Positions 55,248 to 63,140 of a stretch of 64,000 nucleotides of DNA are shown one piece after another. The notes under the pieces were generated by a model. The model was not told the DNA's origin and did no database searches. It saw only the letters and a program-made list of their open reading frames with translations. The translations under genes were made by a program, and so were the position numbers. Position 1 is the first letter of the stretch; each line of letters opens with the position of its first letter. Source of the DNA: Caulobacter sp. Root1455 (GTDB taxonomy: Bacteria > Pseudomonadota > Alphaproteobacteria > Caulobacterales > Caulobacteraceae); NCBI RefSeq assembly GCF_001426905.1, contig NZ_LMFQ01000024.1:596234-660233 (forward strand), read 5' to 3'.

Positions 55248-55409
55248 TCAGACCTTCGGCCGAATCACATCGACCGGTGGCGGCGGCGGCGTCACGCGCG
55301 AGATGTCGGGCGCCGGGACGGGCGGCGTGCGCGGCGGCGGATAATACCGGTGCCCGCAGGCGCAAAGCGCCAGGGCCAGGCCGCCGAGAAGCAGCCCCGT
55401 CCTCAGCAT
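55248..55409 (-). CDS. Small lipoprotein, last gene of the envelope operon
   Basis: A 53-residue protein found by hand. It begins MLRTGLLLGGLALALCACGH, a signal peptide with a lipobox (LCAC, cysteine at about 18), then a short Pro-rich tail (PPPRTPPVPAPD, TPPPPPVDVIRPKV). Its ATG overlaps the end of the upstream gene by seven bases, so it is translated from the same mRNA. The length and lipobox are convincing; function is unknown. Confidence 0.75.
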   Translation of the reverse strand: MLRTGLLLGGLALALCACGHRYYPPPRTPPVPAPDISRVTPPPPPVDVIRPKV

Positions 55410-55942
55410 CCCTGGCGTCCGTCGCCGCGCGGACCCGAGCCCAGACCGCCGTTCGCCCCAAGGCCCAGGCCTTGGCGGAAGCAGTTATTGTCGCCGCGCG
55501 GGTCCCAATACTGGGTCGAACCGTCCGGCGCCCGGAACGACCAGCGCTCGCCGGTCTCGCCGGTGCGGCCGGTGACCTGCATGTCGCCGGGCCCCTGCGA
55601 GCTGACGCGGTAGGCGTCGCCCGACAGCTTGTCGACGGCGCAGGACTCGGTGACGCCGGGCCGGCTGAGATCGCCGCGCAGGGCGGCCGACGAGCCGGTG
55701 TCGCGGTTGAAGGCGCTGACTTCGGTCTGCCCCTTGCCGCCCACGAACACCTGAGTGCCGGTGGCGCGGTCGAAGGTCATGACGTCGGGCGCCTCGCCGG
55801 TCAGGGGCGCGCCGCAGGGCATGGGGCGGCTGGCGGGACCGGGACCTGGGCCGGATCCGACCGGGCCCTGGGCCGAGGCGACGCCGACCAGGCTGGTCGA
55901 GGCGATCAGGCCGGCCATCAGGCCGACGGCGAGCTTGCTCAT
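55403..55942 (-). CDS. Small exported protein of the envelope operon
   Basis: A 179-residue protein. A signal peptide of about 25 residues (VGLMAGLIASTSLVGVASA) is followed by a Pro/Gly linker and a domain with APDVMTFDRATGTQVFVGGKGQ, SAFNRDTGSSAALRGDL, AVDKLSGDAYRVSSQG and a C-terminal WRSF-like RWSFRAPDGSTQYWDPRGDNNCFRQG. The repeats of 'RxTG' suggest a small beta structure; three cysteines may form disulfides. Family not recognised. Its ATG overlaps the upstream stop (ATGA). Confidence 0.75.
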   Translation of the reverse strand: MSKLAVGLMAGLIASTSLVGVASAQGPVGSGPGPGPASRPMPCGAPLTGEAPDVMTFDRATGTQVFVGGKGQTEVSAFNRDTGSSAALRGDLSRPGVTESCAVDKLSGDAYRVSSQGPGDMQVTGRTGETGERWSFRAPDGSTQYWDPRGDNNCFRQGLGLGANGGLGSGPRGDGRQGC

Positions 55943-57354
55943 CGCGGAGATCCCCCTTGCTGAGGATTGGATGGAACATAGGGCTGCGGCGAACCGGGAC
56001 CGACCGGGCCGCCGGCCGAGGGGGCGCCGGCCAGGACCGGCGTCGCGACGTCGGCGGTGACGATCGCCGCGGGCCAGTAGCCGTCGAAGTCCTGCCGAGC
56101 CCGGTCGCGGGGCGTGCGGAACAGCTCTGGCCCCTCGAACCACGGCTGACAGGTCAGCTTGCCGTCGAAATAACCGGTGATCAGCGCCTCGCAGCCGCCG
56201 GGCTTGGCGTAGACCCGGTTGTCGCGAGCCCGAACCTTGGCGCCGTTGTCGGCGAACAAGCCGGCGCGCATCACCCCGGCGATGGCGTTGTCCGAGGCGT
56301 AGACCGTGCCCGAACCGGCGTAGATGCCGACGTCGGTGGCTTCCAGCTTGCCTTCCAGCACCCGCAGGTCGGCGTTCTCGAGCACCACGGCCCAGTCGCT
56401 GTCCCGGACCACGGGCCGCAGCAGGGTCGTTTCGTCGCCCCCGCCGACATAGATGCCGCGCGAGAAGCCGTCGACATAGAGGCCCTCGATCTGCACCAGC
56501 TGCGAGCGGTTCATGCCGGCCAGCACGAAGCCGGCCGAGTTGCGGCTGCGGCTGGAGCCGGTCCAGTCGCCCAGGCGGATGACCCGCATGTCGCGGATGC
56601 GGCTGTCGTCGCCGGCCTCGAACGCCGCGCCGATGGCGGTGGCGGCGACCTCGACATTGTCGGCCATGACCGTGCCGGTCGCCTTGACCACCGCCTGACG
56701 GGTGCGGCCGATGAAGGTGGTGTCGGCGACCTCCAGGCGGCTGTCGCTCAGGTCCAGGGCCGAACCTTCGCCGTCGTAGCGGATCACCACGTCCTTCAGG
56801 GCCAGCTCAGTGGCGCGACCGGTGATGCACGAGGCGGACCCGGCCCGCGTGGCCTCGATGCCCACGCCCTCGATCACCACATAGGCCACGCCGGGCGCGA
56901 TCCGGATGCAGGGCTGATCGACCGGCGCCACCAGGATCGGCCGGTCGCGCGACGGGACGTAGCCCTCGACGACGATGTTGACCGAGCGGGTGATGTTCAG
57001 GGAGTCGACACAGGCCCGGCCGCCGCGCGACCGCAGGGTCAGGGTGCCGCCTTCATGGAGCCGTTCCAGCGCCTCGCTGACCTCGCCCGGATAGGCCCGG
57101 CCGCAATCCACCACGGCGTGATAGCGCCCGCCTCGGCCGTAGTCATAACCCGTGCCGTAGCGCGGCCTGGGCTTGCGATAGTGCCTGGTCCGGCAGCCGG
57201 CCGACAGGTTCGGGTCGAGCAGCAGGCCGAAGCACGGACGGATCTGCTGGTCGATCTTGGCGTCGGGCGATCCCGCGACGGCGACCTGCGGCGCGACGCC
57301 GAGCGCCAGGCCCCAGACCGCCAGGGCCGCGACGAGCGTGCGGAGGCGGATCAT
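55939..57354 (-). CDS. Exported right-handed parallel beta-helix protein
   Basis: A 471-residue protein with a signal peptide (about 27 residues). Residues about 120-400 consist of short irregular coils (VNIVVEGYVPSRDRPILVAP, CIRIAPGVAYVVIEGVGIEA, ALDLSDSRLEVADTTFIG) of the kind seen in parallel beta-helix or pectate lyase-like folds. Cysteines occur in pairs. The C-terminus is Pro/Gly rich. A glycan-binding or lyase role is possible but no catalytic site is identifiable. Its ATG overlaps the stop of the SEL1 gene. Confidence 0.8.
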   Translation of the reverse strand: MIRLRTLVAALAVWGLALGVAPQVAVAGSPDAKIDQQIRPCFGLLLDPNLSAGCRTRHYRKPRPRYGTGYDYGRGGRYHAVVDCGRAYPGEVSEALERLHEGGTLTLRSRGGRACVDSLNITRSVNIVVEGYVPSRDRPILVAPVDQPCIRIAPGVAYVVIEGVGIEATRAGSASCITGRATELALKDVVIRYDGEGSALDLSDSRLEVADTTFIGRTRQAVVKATGTVMADNVEVAATAIGAAFEAGDDSRIRDMRVIRLGDWTGSSRSRNSAGFVLAGMNRSQLVQIEGLYVDGFSRGIYVGGGDETTLLRPVVRDSDWAVVLENADLRVLEGKLEATDVGIYAGSGTVYASDNAIAGVMRAGLFADNGAKVRARDNRVYAKPGGCEALITGYFDGKLTCQPWFEGPELFRTPRDRARQDFDGYWPAAIVTADVATPVLAGAPSAGGPVGPGSPQPYVPSNPQQGGSPR

Positions 57355-58862
57355 CGATAATCCCTTTCGGCATAGGGCTGGGGCCGAGGCTCGCCGGCGG
57401 CGCGCGGCGGCCGCGAGACCTGGGACAGCAGCTGCTGCAGCCGCCAGACCGACGGCTTGAAGCCGGCCAGGGCCCCGTCCAGCTGGTAGACCACGGCCTT
57501 GGCCCGGTCCTGGTCCGCCACGCCCTGCAGGCCCAGCGAGAAGAAGGTCGACATGGCGTACTTGGCCTCGGCCGACCCCTGGCGCTCGGCCTCCTCGTAC
57601 CAGTGATAGGCCCGGGCATAGTCGCGCGGCACGCCCACGCCTTCGGAATACATCACGGCCAGGACCAGCTGGGCCTTGGAGGAGCCGTTGACCGCCGCGT
57701 ACTGGATGGCGCGGACCTTCTCGATGCCCGACAGGCGGCCCGTGACCGGACGGCCGATCATCGACTGGAAGGTCTGGGCTTCGTTGGTGCTCAGCATGCG
57801 CTCGTCGAGCAGCGGCGCCGGGATCACCCGCAGATAGGTCAGGGCCTCGCCGATGTGCACGAACGGCAGTTCGTTCAGCCGCGCCAGGGCCGCTTCCTTG
57901 GCGTCGCCCGACGGATCGCTCTCGTCGGAATGCGGAACGCCGCTGTCGGGCGATTCAGGCGGGTAGAATTCGTAGGGCGGGATCCAGCGCTTGGCCTTGG
58001 TCTCGACGAAGCCGCCGTAGGACGCGCGCTGCGGCGACGAGCGCTCGAAGTCCTTGAGCATCACATAGGCCGACACGTCCCCGGTCTGCACGGCCAGGTA
58101 ATTGTAGAGATAGGCGTCGACGTCGTTGCGGCGGAACAGGTCCAGCGCGGCCGGCGCGCCGGTGCGCTTGGGCGATCCGTAGGCCTCGATGGCCTGCAGA
58201 TTGTCGGACGGCTCGCCGAACGGGCCGAAGAAGCCGTCATGCATGCGCGCCAGGGCCCGGTAGCCGTCGGCCCCCTGGGTGGAAAGTATGTAGATCACGC
58301 GGTTGCGGACCTTCTCGCGCTCCTCGGTCGACATGCGCGACAAAAGTCGGTCCAGGGCGCCGTAGGCCGCGTGGCGTTCGAAGGCCCGGCAATCGTCGAA
58401 TCGCGACAGCGGTCCCTGGTCCTTGCCGCCGCGACGCTCGTAGGCGGCGATGGGCGAATAGCCGCCGGCGTTGGCCAGGGCCATGGCGTACCAGACCGCC
58501 GCCTCGACGGGGTCCTCGAGATTCTTGTCGACCGCGCGCTGGCCCTCGTAGCGACGGGCCAGCTCGAGCTGAGCGAAGAAGTCGCCGCGGAAGCCGCCCT
58601 GGCGAAGGCCGCGGATTTCCTGCTGCTGCTGATTGAACTGGCCGGAAACCCCCTGCGCGGCCTGGGGCCGGGGACAGGCGCTGGCGCGCTTGTGAAACAG
58701 GAAGCTGGGTCCGGTGTCGCAGCCGACGAGCGGAATCACCACCGCGGCGACCACGGCCCCGACCGGCAGGCGGCGGAGCAGCGTCGCGCGATTATCGACC
58801 AGATAGGCCAGCCCACGCTTGAGGGCGGCGAGATGAGAAACAGCATTGCTGGTCTCGTGCAT
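57351..58862 (-). CDS. SEL1-repeat (TPR-like) envelope protein
   Basis: A 503-residue protein. After a cytosolic-looking basic start, one hydrophobic segment (about residues 34-48, ending VGC) may act as membrane anchor or lipobox. The C-terminal region, from about residue 390, has SEL1 repeats, for example AAVNGSSKAQLVLAVMYSEGVGVPRDYARAYHWYEEAERQGSAEAKYAMSTFF. The middle is rich in Tyr, Pro and Arg. SEL1 repeats mediate protein contacts. Start after GAGGGGGAGCG. It leads a four-gene overlapping operon and lies next to a CtrA-like box. Confidence 0.85.
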   Translation of the reverse strand: MHETSNAVSHLAALKRGLAYLVDNRATLLRRLPVGAVVAAVVIPLVGCDTGPSFLFHKRASACPRPQAAQGVSGQFNQQQQEIRGLRQGGFRGDFFAQLELARRYEGQRAVDKNLEDPVEAAVWYAMALANAGGYSPIAAYERRGGKDQGPLSRFDDCRAFERHAAYGALDRLLSRMSTEEREKVRNRVIYILSTQGADGYRALARMHDGFFGPFGEPSDNLQAIEAYGSPKRTGAPAALDLFRRNDVDAYLYNYLAVQTGDVSAYVMLKDFERSSPQRASYGGFVETKAKRWIPPYEFYPPESPDSGVPHSDESDPSGDAKEAALARLNELPFVHIGEALTYLRVIPAPLLDERMLSTNEAQTFQSMIGRPVTGRLSGIEKVRAIQYAAVNGSSKAQLVLAVMYSEGVGVPRDYARAYHWYEEAERQGSAEAKYAMSTFFSLGLQGVADQDRAKAVVYQLDGALAGFKPSVWRLQQLLSQVSRPPRAAGEPRPQPYAERDYR

Positions 58863-58882
58863 CGCTCCCCCTCAGCACGCCG

Positions 58883-58897
58883 TTAACCATGATTTAC
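58883..58897. promoter_or_regulatory. CtrA-like box
   Basis: TTAA, seven bases (CCATGAT), then TTAC: one mismatch from the TTAA-N7-TTAA consensus of the Caulobacter cell-cycle regulator CtrA, with the common TTAACCAT left half. It lies 21 bases upstream of the SEL1 gene start and 185 bases upstream of the divergent von Willebrand A gene. Confidence 0.55.
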
Positions 58898-59081
58898 AAA
58901 TCACTCATGTGCTTGGCCGTAGAGACTGTCAAGCTCGCGGAACGTCGTTCGTGAGACTGTCTCGAAGATGCCCACAGAAGGATTCTCGCCTCAGGCGAAT
59001 CCCTGGGTTTTCAGTCATGGCCCAGCTTTCGCCACAACGGGCGCGCCGGCTTGATCCGCAACCCTGGGAGGATTTCAGGTC

Positions 59082-60878
59082 ATGGCGTCAGGTCTCGTTC
59101 GCGTCCTCGGCTCCACCGCTCTTTCGCTCTTGATCGCCAGTTCCACGACCGCCCCGAGCCTTGCCTCGCCTTCGCGCGGCGACGGGGCCGCGACGCCGGA
59201 AGCTTGCGCGGCCCTCGGCTATGCCCCGCCCGAGCGACAAGACAGCTTCACGACCACCCAGGCCCGAAAAAGAAGCGCCCTGACGCAGTACGCCCCGACC
59301 GGCGTCGCGCCGCCGCCGCTGCCGATCCCGCCGGTCCAGGAACGCTTCGCGGGTCCGCCGCCGCCGCTCCCGCCGCCCCCGGCTCCGATGGCTTACAGCG
59401 GCGCGACGGCGGACATCGGCGCCTTCCCGTCCGTTCGGCCCAACTTCCCGTCGCCGGCCCGCGACACCGAGAAATACCCCGGCGCGGCGGCCAACCCGAT
59501 CAAGCGGGTGGCCGAGGAGCCGGTGTCGACCTTCTCGATCGATGTCGACACCGCCGCCTACGCCAATGTCCGCCGGTTCCTGAACGAAGGCGCCGCCCCG
59601 CCGCGTGACGCGGTCCGGGTCGAGGAGCTGGTCAACTATTTCGACTACGGCTACGCCCGCCCGACCGCCAAGGACGAGCCGTTCAAGGCGACCGTGGCCG
59701 TCGTCCCCTCCCCCTGGTCCAAGGACCGTCAGCTGCTGCACATCGGCGTCCAGGGCTACGCCGCGCCGCGCGCCGGCCAGCCGCCGCTGAACCTGGTGTT
59801 CCTGATCGACACCTCCGGCTCGATGTCCGGTCCCGACCGCCTGCCGCTGGCCCAGAAGGCGCTGAACGTGTTGATCGACCAGTTGCGGCCGCAGGACCGC
59901 GTGGCGATGGTGGCCTATGCCGGTTCGGCCGGGGCGGTGCTGTCGCCCACGGACGGACGCTCCAAGCTGAAGATGCGCTGCGCCCTGACGGCGCTGCATT
60001 CGGGCGGCTCGACCGCCGGCGGCCAGGGGTTGAAGCTGGCCTACGACCTGGCCAAGCAGAACTTCGACCCCAAGGCGGTCAACCGGGTGATCCTGGTGAC
60101 CGACGGCGACTTCAATGTCGGCATCGCCGAGCCGGCGCGCCTGAAGGACTTGGTGGCCGACCAGCGCAAGAGCGGGGTCTATCTGTCAGTCTACGGCTTC
60201 GGACGCGGCAACTACAATGACACGATGATGCAAGCCCTGGCCCAGAACGGCAACGGAACGGCGGCCTATGTCGACAGCCTGCAGGAGGCCCGCAAGCTGC
60301 TGCGCGACGACTTCGACAGCGCTCTGTTCCCGATCGCCGACGACGTGAAGATCCAGGTCGAGTTCAATCCGGCGAAGGTCAGCGAATACCGGCTGATCGG
60401 CTACGAGACCCGGCTGCTCAATCGCGAGGACTTCAACAACGACCAGGTCGACGCCGGCGAGGTCGGTTCGGGCGCGGCGGTGACGGCGATCTACGAGATC
60501 ACCCCCGCCGGGGCCAGGCCCTCGTCCGACCCGCTGCGCTACGGCGCCACCCCGCCTCCCGCGGCGGGCGGAAGCGAGCTGGCCTTCCTGAAGATCCGCT
60601 ACAAGCCTCCAGGCGGCTCGACCTCGAAACTGATCGAACGCCCGATCGGCGCCGGCGACGTGCGTCCGAGCCTGGCCGCCGCGCCGGAGTCGACCCGCTT
60701 CGCGGTGGCCGTGGCCGCCTATGGCCAGAAGCTGCGCGGCGATCCCTGGATCGACGCCGGCTTCGACTGGGACGCCGTCACCGGCCTGGCCCAGGGCGCG
60801 CGCGGCGAGGATCCCTACGGCCTGCGCGCCGAGTTCGTGCAGTTGGCCCGGGCGGCGAAGGACGTGAAGGGCAGCTAG
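59082..60878 (+). CDS. Von Willebrand factor type A domain protein, YfbK-type, exported
   Basis: A 598-residue protein with a signal peptide and a Pro-rich stretch (residues about 80-105, PPPPLPPPPAP). VSTFSIDVDTAAYANVRRFLNEG and VEELVNYFDYGY are the conserved N-terminal block. The A domain holds the metal site DTSGSMS (about residue 243), then VTDGDFNVG. The C-terminal part corresponds to DUF3520. Such proteins bind partners through a divalent metal. The ATG follows GGGAGGATTTCAGGTC. It is divergent from the SEL1 operon. Confidence 0.92.
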   Translation: MASGLVRVLGSTALSLLIASSTTAPSLASPSRGDGAATPEACAALGYAPPERQDSFTTTQARKRSALTQYAPTGVAPPPLPIPPVQERFAGPPPPLPPPPAPMAYSGATADIGAFPSVRPNFPSPARDTEKYPGAAANPIKRVAEEPVSTFSIDVDTAAYANVRRFLNEGAAPPRDAVRVEELVNYFDYGYARPTAKDEPFKATVAVVPSPWSKDRQLLHIGVQGYAAPRAGQPPLNLVFLIDTSGSMSGPDRLPLAQKALNVLIDQLRPQDRVAMVAYAGSAGAVLSPTDGRSKLKMRCALTALHSGGSTAGGQGLKLAYDLAKQNFDPKAVNRVILVTDGDFNVGIAEPARLKDLVADQRKSGVYLSVYGFGRGNYNDTMMQALAQNGNGTAAYVDSLQEARKLLRDDFDSALFPIADDVKIQVEFNPAKVSEYRLIGYETRLLNREDFNNDQVDAGEVGSGAAVTAIYEITPAGARPSSDPLRYGATPPPAAGGSELAFLKIRYKPPGGSTSKLIERPIGAGDVRPSLAAAPESTRFAVAVAAYGQKLRGDPWIDAGFDWDAVTGLAQGARGEDPYGLRAEFVQLARAAKDVKGS

Positions 60879-61430: not shown

Positions 61431-63140
61431 CTAGGTGATCAGTCCCAGGAAGGCCAGACGATCGCGCTGGTCGCGCGTGCCGGGGGTGAAGTAGCGCTCG
61501 GACCAGTCGTCGGTGTCCTTCAGGGCGAAGATCTGGTTGGCCTCGAACTTCTCGTCCTTGCGCGACCGGAACCAGTAGTGCTCGAACATCCGCATGAAGT
61601 CGGCGACATAGACATCGGCCACCGCCGTATCGCCCCGGAAGACCAGTACGTTGGAATCGTTGGCCACCGTCGAGTTGGTCGAGAAGTTGGCCGAGCCGGT
61701 GATCAGCACGGGATCCGGGCCGAACGGATCGGCCAGGATGATCTTGGAGTGGATGTGGATGCCGGCGTGGTGAAAGCCCTCGTCCATCATCAACCGATCG
61801 CGATCGAGCTTGCGCTTCTGGAAGTCGGTCAGCTTGATCCCCTCGAAGGGCTTGGCGACGGCGGCCATGTTGCCGGGATCGGCGTTGAGCGCGTCGATAT
61901 TGCCCTTCGCGCCGTATGATCCTTCCTTGTCGGCCAGCATGAACCGCATCGCCCCGTCGGTCGGAGACCCCAGCACGTCACGGATCTTCTCGTGCAGGGC
62001 GAAGGGGGCGCTGACCATCAGCACCTTGGCCGTCCTGCAGACGTCGGCGTAGAGCTCGATCATCCCCAGCCCGTTCTGCGGCGAGAACAGCGGCGTCGCC
62101 CCGTGCTGCAGCGCCGCGCGGTTCAGCGGCGTGGGCGTGATCACGTCATTCTTGGCCTGGGTCTGGTCGATGCTCAGGTCCAGGGCCAGCACCTGGAAGC
62201 CGGCCTCGTAACGCTCGGCGACGGCGGTGTCGTAGACCGCGTGGCCGACGTTCAGCTGGCCGTAAATGCCGCCCTCGGTCCAGTTGGTGCCGCCGGTCCA
62301 CACCGCGATCGGCTTGAGCACGCCCGTCGCGTCCTTGCGCAGCAGCACCAGGTACTTGTTGTGCATGATCGCCGAGCCCTGGGCGCGAGGCGTGGTGGCG
62401 AAGGTGACGCCCAGGTCGGCGATGGCCGCCTTGTTCTCCTCGGCGGTGTTGCCCCCGGCCCGGGCGTGATAGACGATGTGCACCTCGGCGCCGCGCTTCT
62501 GGGCCTGCACCAGCGCCTTGATCGGCGTCGGCTTCTCGAATTCGTAGATGCAGCCGTGCAGGGCGTAGTCCGGCCCGTTCGCCTTGGCGATGAAGGCCAC
62601 CAGCCCCTCTTCCAGCCCGCGCGACAGCCAGGTCAGGGCCTCGGGAATGGCGTCGGGATCGTTGTCGCCGAACTTGTTGACATAGGCCTGGCTGGCCGCG
62701 GCCCCGCGATTGAAGAAGATCGAGGTCGCCTCGTTGCGGCAGTCCTCGGTGCGCAGTTCCAGGGTGACCCCGCCGGGGATGGCGTCGAAGCCGCCGGGGC
62801 GTTCGGCCAGAATCCCCTGGGCCAGGATCTCGGCCGGCGTCCCGTAGCGAGCCACCACCCGGTAGCGATAGAGGCGTCCGGGCTCGGTGGTGTAGTCGCC
62901 CCAGCGGAACTTCTGCAGCGGCGCCCGGGCCGTGGTCACCCATTCCGGGTTCGGGTCGCTCATGAAACGCAGCGAGTTCGGCAGCCAGCGGCGATCGCCC
63001 GTGCCGACGTCGGTCCGCTCGATCGAGAAGCCCAGGCATCCGGCGCGGCGCTCATCCGCCAGGTCGAACGCGAGCAACGCCGCGTGCGTCCCCGCGATCA
63101 CCCTCACCGTCAGACCGTCCTTCGAAGCTCTCGCGCGCAT
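61431..63140 (-). CDS. Phospholipase D-like domain protein
   Basis: A 569-residue protein with two HKD regions. The second, HSKIILAD followed by LITGSANFSTNST (His about 464), is complete. The first, MHNKYLVLL followed by WTGGTNWTEGG (His about 260), has leucine where the aspartate stands. The N-terminal 150 residues contain an immunoglobulin-like region (GFSIERTDVGTGDRRW) of unclear role. No signal peptide. Activity could be a lipase, nuclease or transferase. Confidence 0.87.
   Translation of the reverse strand: MRARASKDGLTVRVIAGTHAALLAFDLADERRAGCLGFSIERTDVGTGDRRWLPNSLRFMSDPNPEWVTTARAPLQKFRWGDYTTEPGRLYRYRVVARYGTPAEILAQGILAERPGGFDAIPGGVTLELRTEDCRNEATSIFFNRGAAASQAYVNKFGDNDPDAIPEALTWLSRGLEEGLVAFIAKANGPDYALHGCIYEFEKPTPIKALVQAQKRGAEVHIVYHARAGGNTAEENKAAIADLGVTFATTPRAQGSAIMHNKYLVLLRKDATGVLKPIAVWTGGTNWTEGGIYGQLNVGHAVYDTAVAERYEAGFQVLALDLSIDQTQAKNDVITPTPLNRAALQHGATPLFSPQNGLGMIELYADVCRTAKVLMVSAPFALHEKIRDVLGSPTDGAMRFMLADKEGSYGAKGNIDALNADPGNMAAVAKPFEGIKLTDFQKRKLDRDRLMMDEGFHHAGIHIHSKIILADPFGPDPVLITGSANFSTNSTVANDSNVLVFRGDTAVADVYVADFMRMFEHYWFRSRKDEKFEANQIFALKDTDDWSERYFTPGTRDQRDRLAFLGLIT

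Follow-up and report, generated by a model that had tools for sequence, protein, structure and literature searches.

We identify in Caulobacter sp. Root1455 a four-gene operon that very probably is the Caulobacter crossband operon, with gene 1 encoding StpA, gene 2 encoding StpB, and an assembly mechanism of the kind proposed below. The four genes lie in a 64,000-nucleotide stretch of contig NZ_LMFQ01000024.1 (positions 596,234 to 660,233; hereafter the window), run on its minus strand from 58862 to 55248, and overlap successively by 4, 4, and 7 bases. In C. crescentus, crossbands are disc-like protein complexes across the stalk envelope that stop protein exchange between stalk and cell body; they contain StpA, StpB, StpC, and StpD, with StpA required for assembly of the others (PMC5590869, PMC4460556, PMC6373972). 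Crossbands have been described as protein-made diffusion barriers in the bacterial envelope, and stpA is reported to be up-regulated under severe phosphate starvation (PMC11208175). The StpA-StpB core is known biology, and the third and fourth genes, here called SEP and LIP, add two small, strictly coupled candidate crossband parts. A preliminary description of the window had delineated the same four overlapping genes and stated that no known pathway matched the set. The gene structure was confirmed at the same positions, with the overlaps between genes 2 and 3 and genes 3 and 4 kept across loci; the second statement gives way to the match of genes 1 and 2 to crossband proteins, which also supports the suggestion of one envelope complex, since StpA and StpB are published parts of a single such complex.

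Identity of genes 1 and 2

By far the best reading of the sequences is that the SEL1-repeat protein of gene 1 is StpA and the beta-helix protein of gene 2 is StpB, because in two genomes our gene counts agree with the published locus tags, within 3 genes in one and within 1 gene in the other. The first genome (G224) we take to be Brevundimonas subvibrioides ATCC 15264, and the second (G200) is Asticcacaulis excentricus CB 48, 12 kb of its third contig being 100% identical to plasmid NC_014818.1. For these species, Table 1 of PMC5590869 gives Bresu_2758 as the StpA ortholog and Astex_0986 and Astex_0987 as the StpA and StpB orthologs, respectively. In G224, a bactofilin gene and two of three transglycosylase-family genes occupy positions fitting Bresu_2189, Bresu_2191, and Bresu_0560; counting 566 genes from bacA (Bresu_2189) to the SEL1 gene yields tag 2755, compared with the published 2758, and by this count the neighbouring transglycosylase gene comes second after bacA, in keeping with its tag. 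In G200, our count reaches the SEL1 gene at 987 and the beta-helix gene at 988, compared with the published 0986 and 0987. At an expect value (E) <1e-20, the SEL1 protein matches G224 once and G200 at a single locus, which is hit in two pieces. By gene order, gene 1 is therefore the ortholog of Bresu_2758 and Astex_0986, while gene 2 corresponds to Astex_0987 both by its ordinal (988) and by its position directly after stpA in 68/68 loci (64 named and 4 further, all chosen for holding a SEL1 gene).

Predicted StpA and StpB proteins

The StpA ortholog contains one significant Sel1 repeat (PF08238, E 2.6e-11, 44.1 bits versus a Pfam cut-off of 30.7), the canonical repeat lying at residues 395–430, which places it among the Sel1 proteins by the measure of at least one repeat above the Pfam cut-off. 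Further repeats were sought with a model built from the canonical one, which found itself only. Its lipobox (LVGC, at Cys48) is followed by Asp; 31 of the 33 homologs aligned retain the Cys, and 24 of these 31 have Asp next. The two exceptions are L128, also without the Cys, and L131, where a plain hydrophobic segment takes its place, an anchor that fits inner-membrane anchoring of StpA.

StpB had no significant Pfam match (PF13229, E 0.11), and its profile, compared with solved structures, retrieved only a phage tail needle at E 0.001 and weaker. An AlphaFold2 model from a 41-sequence alignment consisted of many short strands and was confident from about residue 79 to 404, with 261 of 471 residues at a predicted local distance difference test score (pLDDT) ≥90. 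Foldseek searches with this model gave weak matches (best E 6.5e-4, one match <0.001, template-modelling scores of about 0.2–0.5), most of the top ones being what we take to be beta-helix proteins. Twelve columns were invariant among the 41 sequences (A32, F42, L45, C84, C115, C149, C176, G195, A199, G349, N379, and C388), and neither these nor the 16 near-invariant columns (90%) included any Asp, Glu, His, or Lys. The sole Arg among the conserved columns, near-invariant R39, precedes the helix and lies outside the confident part of the model. This conservation argues for a structural over a catalytic role, since no Asp, Glu, His, or Lys is conserved. The conserved charged catalytic residues of an AlgG-type epimerase or lyase were likewise absent, as judged from the columns conserved within the StpB family.

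Signal peptides and lipoboxes were assigned by eye; together with the Sel1 match and the structure model, they agree with the products that the preliminary description had proposed (a SEL1 protein, a beta-helix protein, a small exported protein, and a 53-residue lipoprotein).

Distribution and gene coupling

Profile searches, with result lists compared by eye, found stpA and stpB in an identical set of 145/299 Caulobacteraceae genomes, representing 12/22 genera, which makes StpA and StpB a two-gene core. Both also occurred in the same 46/101 relatives, a count from which SEL1 matches weaker than 1e-20 were dropped, as weak matches to other Sel1 proteins raise the tally to 86. Between B. subvibrioides and C. 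vibrioides, identity is 57% for StpA and 27% for StpB (blastp), so that on these sequences StpB is diverging much faster than StpA. The B. subvibrioides StpB relative sits directly after stpA (G224:C1:2771447-2772895; L143:7442-8896), shares 27% identity with the C. vibrioides protein over 389 amino acids (blastp E 9e-20), and matches the StpB profile at E 1.6e-148, being itself a row of that profile (A1). In PMC5590869 (2017), where full-length best hits were required, StpB is listed as absent from Brevundimonas; our searches did not bear this out, and the fast divergence of StpB may explain why it was missed. The Brevundimonas StpB corrects that report of absence, which had prompted the suggestion of StpA-only crossbands. 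No mention of a Brevundimonas StpB, or of the identical presence of StpA and StpB, was found in the literature searched.

One genome (G029) carries two stpA-stpB pairs (C47:39570-42493 and C5:45418-48128), which could reflect duplication or a mixed assembly (contamination is given as 3), and two different stpAB loci (L110 and L123) come from one metagenome bin (E19_concoct.bin.98) that is probably mixed. Both genes are lacking from ten same-genus genomes that are ≥99% complete (G003, G007, G009, G013, G027, G031, G047, G049, G056, and G184). G003, in which profile searches found neither gene, we take to be C. segnis, and we draw no conclusion linking stpAB absence to stalk loss, as this organism is not reported stalkless: visible stalks are reported in under 3% of its cells.

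Within the operon, the stpB-SEP overlap of 4 bases was present in 29/29 loci and the SEP-LIP overlap of 7 bases in 28/28 loci whose contig reaches far enough (L077 and L094 were left out, as their contigs end). In one of these (L101), the script picked a longer TTG start for LIP, with a same-frame ATG at −7; an in-frame LIP start thus lies at exactly −7 in all 28. The couplings are beyond chance expectation. The stpA-stpB gap, with gene starts set by a simple rule, varied among the 68 loci, at −4 in 34, −1 in 13, 0 in 6, and 5–53 bases in 15.

SEP and LIP

Neither SEP nor LIP matched any family in Pfam or NCBIfam with the threshold as lax as E 1. The predicted structure of SEP was of low confidence (mean pLDDT 60) and gave no credible Foldseek match, and the SEP profile, compared with solved structures, returned nothing below E 0.4. 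At E <1e-50, SEP was found in 36/299 genomes, 34 from genus g1 (the genus of the window) and 2 from genus g23. LIP lies beside it in 35 of the 36, the SEP match of the remaining genome (G004) starting at base 1, where the contig ends, and in 28 of 30 SEP loci (named loci plus the window), the contigs of the other two ending too early. A LIP search of the 299 genomes listed 110 at E 0.001; the matches beyond the 35 beside SEP were weak (best 2.9e-6) and were not counted. The preliminary description's expectation that the four genes would co-occur in related genomes therefore held in part: stpA and stpB go together, as do SEP and LIP, whereas strong SEP reaches only 36/299 genomes.

The terminal tail of LIP is near-constant, V-[TI]-P-P-P-P-P followed closely by R-P, and the five prolines are invariant in 17 aligned sequences (alignment A4, 17 of 28). 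Outside this alignment, among the unaligned 11, the L087 protein has PPPPS for PPPPP. In L096 (Caulobacter vibrioides T5M6), also outside A4, LIP is 42 amino acids long without the proline tail, perhaps owing to a frameshift or sequencing error. The residue after the lipid-bearing Cys of LIP was Asp in 0/28 sequences. As a modest signal from a short gene, the median ratio of nonsynonymous to synonymous substitution rates was 0.61 among 27 sequences, compared with 1.30 in the +2 frame, which is open in 23/27; the +1 frame is open in just 2/27.

A further 14 SEP matches (E 7e-25 to 8e-7) came from genus g31 (13), to which A. excentricus belongs, and genus g20 (1). Twelve of them (11 from g31 and the one from g20) occupy the strand opposite stpB, no more than about 1.2 kb downstream of it, the weak relatives in G182 and G235 being located elsewhere. 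Six such genes from Asticcacaulis/g31 (L135–L137, L157, L159, and L161) have, by eye, a lipobox of their own, and the g20 gene (L158) is longer and without one. It seems, from these sequences, that some members of the Asticcacaulis group unite a SEP-like domain and a lipid anchor in a single protein. No mention of the coupled mini-lipoprotein or of inverted SEP relatives was found in the literature searched.

Promoter and CtrA half-site

Upstream of stpA, TTGAC followed by GTTAA 40–46 bases on was found in 53/64 loci, with TGGTTAACG in 47 of the 53; L138 was dropped from the promoter count for its broken SEL1 frame. The misses were L090, L103, L112, L117, L121, and six Asticcacaulis loci (L132–L137). 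In the window, the combination TTGAC-N34-42-TGGTTAACG has a single occurrence against 0 expected, and the whole genome holds no other. The GTTAA element is a CtrA half-site, TTAACC when read on the opposite strand. In the window it belongs to ATGGTTAAC, whose complementary strand gives the half-site as TTAACCAT and which precedes the start of stpA by about 20 bases. Found once in the window, TTAACCAT alone also turns up in 10 of 100 shuffles, and the weight therefore rests on its conserved context. The CtrA-like box of the preliminary description is accordingly real and conserved as a motif (53/64) but amounts to a half-site, the full TTAA-N7-TTAA box appearing in 0/63 loci tested. The position of the present half-site, close to the predicted start or slightly beyond it, suggests repression. 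For the ctrA P1 promoter, repression through one half-site at −10 is described (PMC11264516).

Neighbouring genes

The divergent gene next to the operon encodes a YfbK-type von Willebrand A protein (PF12034, E 3.1e-63). The preliminary description was right to place it there, but it is not a constant partner: among 60 covered loci (four with short flanks were left out), it is adjacent in 22, not in the flank in 35, and elsewhere in 3, and it was ruled out as a fifth operon part on this count. One locus counted as elsewhere (L109) may be a 23rd adjacent case, as the open frame there runs past the stpA start, and in L085 and L088 the gene lies on the far side of the operon. Farther off on the minus strand (window 61431–63140) is a 569-amino-acid protein, phospholipase D-like by eye, with a relative near only L075, L093, and L102 among the 64 loci.

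Table 1 Features of the probable crossband locus in the window (aa, amino acids).
Feature	Coordinates	Strand	Remarks
Probable stpA ortholog, SEL1-repeat lipoprotein, 503 aa	57351..58862	-	Sel1 repeat, lipobox, tag ordinals
Probable stpB ortholog, secreted, beta-helix by prediction, 471 aa, five invariant Cys	55939..57354	-	
SEP, gene 3, secreted, 179 aa, 8 predicted beta strands (low-confidence model), no known family	55403..55942	-	
LIP, gene 4, 53-aa lipoprotein, near-constant TPPPPP...RP tail	55248..55409	-	
Promoter-like block: TTGAC (-35-like), then ATGGTTAAC	58881..58932	-	Conserved across loci
YfbK-type von Willebrand A protein, divergent neighbour	59082..60878	+	PF12034

Proposed mechanism and alternatives

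We posit that StpA would be a lipoprotein held in the inner membrane that recruits StpB, a cysteine-rich, probably non-enzymatic beta-helix rod in the periplasm, and that SEP and LIP, translated from one shared mRNA by way of the 4- and 7-base overlaps, would make up the side at the outer membrane. In E. coli, an Asp after the lipid-bearing Cys directs a lipoprotein to the inner membrane; StpA would go to the inner and LIP to the outer membrane because Asp mostly follows the Cys of StpA and never that of LIP. A sigma-70-type promoter with a CtrA half-site would silence the operon as long as CtrA is active and allow its expression in the stalked phase. Tentatively, SEP and LIP may be overlooked components of the crossband, linking the disc of StpA and StpB with the outer membrane; the core would be the ancestral barrier in all 12 genera that carry it, including Brevundimonas. 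If true, with StpA in the inner and LIP in the outer membrane, the crossband would act as a two-membrane clamp, and in the Asticcacaulis group the SEP-like lipoprotein, encoded in the opposite direction, would do the same job. The literature searched held no account of how crossbands link the membranes.

The pairing of a SEL1 scaffold with a beta-helix would also suit a module that exports or modifies polysaccharide in the manner of AlgK plus AlgG, in which the beta-helix is an enzyme. The NCBIfam AlgK model does match the SEL1 protein, weakly (E 0.0021), and the Foldseek matches include carbohydrate-acting beta-helices, AlgE4 and AlgG among them, at E 6.5e-4 and weaker. The AlgK match, however, spans the shared Sel1 repeat only and scores 16.8 bits of a 700-bit cut-off, Asp, Glu, His, and Lys are all missing from the conserved columns of the beta-helix family, family searches found no porin, polymerase, or glycosyltransferase among the four genes, and the locus matches the StpA and StpB tags as published; export of the AlgK/AlgG type, ruled out by the missing charged residues and partner genes, is thus highly improbable. 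A different question is whether SEP and LIP belong to the crossband at all: it is possible, though short of probable, that they are passengers on the message, such as a small pair located at the outer membrane or binding peptidoglycan, since strong SEP occurs in 36/299 genomes versus 145/299 for stpAB and the basic pair does without them. Yet the 4- and 7-base overlaps are kept in every covered locus, and of the 13 g31 genomes with a match, 11 have a weak SEP relative next to stpB on the other strand, as does the one g20 genome; therefore, the SEP-stpB association outlives the shared message. Conversely, SEP and LIP might simply be the published StpC and StpD, with nothing new in the operon, a proposal about which we are doubtful without dismissing it. 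In PMC5590869, StpC and StpD are reported in neither Brevundimonas nor Asticcacaulis, which accords with the near confinement of strong SEP/LIP to the genus of the window (34/36). Strong SEP/LIP nevertheless occur in two g23 genomes as well, one of them maybe the Phenylobacterium aquaticum locus L138, and a lipoprotein of about 53 residues would be an unusual catch for pull-down mass spectrometry.

Several observations weigh against the crossband operon as we propose it. The link of genes 1 and 2 to the published proteins runs indirectly, through tag ordinals obtained with a home-made gene finder, and stricter gene-score cut-offs give 555–561 genes in G224 and ordinals 969 and 947 in G200, further from the published tags. 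The StpB alignment is just 25–30% identical between clades, so that a catalytic residue could be misaligned. The membrane sides of StpA and LIP rest on the E. coli sorting rule, which may not be that of Caulobacter, and the stpA transcription start is a prediction from sequence. For SEP, the genome search gave no match in A. excentricus CB 48, and the literature searched offered no experimental link of SEP or LIP to crossbands. Lastly, the absence of StpB from Brevundimonas, as listed in PMC5590869, conflicts with the syntenic relative in B. subvibrioides.

Comparison with known systems

Among Sel1 repeat proteins (PF08238), solved structures are matched by the StpA profile with a best E of 4.1e-33, the best stretch being residues 387–435, and StpA differs from them by about 400 further family-conserved residues that have no Pfam match above cut-off. 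The alginate machine, in which AlgK is a SEL1/TPR-type lipoprotein and AlgG a periplasmic beta-helix, resembles the present pair in adjoining two such proteins, but what is shared is a single Sel1 repeat, and the locus here has no porin or polymerase and no conserved acidic residue, His, or Lys. The closest likeness is to StpA-StpB of C. crescentus, with the same gene-order match in two genomes, an adjacent and exported pair, and a presence that likewise covers Caulobacter, Asticcacaulis, and Brevundimonas. From the published crossband table (PMC5590869), our results differ in that a StpB relative is also found in B. subvibrioides, and from the known StpA-StpB pair, the operon described here differs by its overlapping third and fourth genes.

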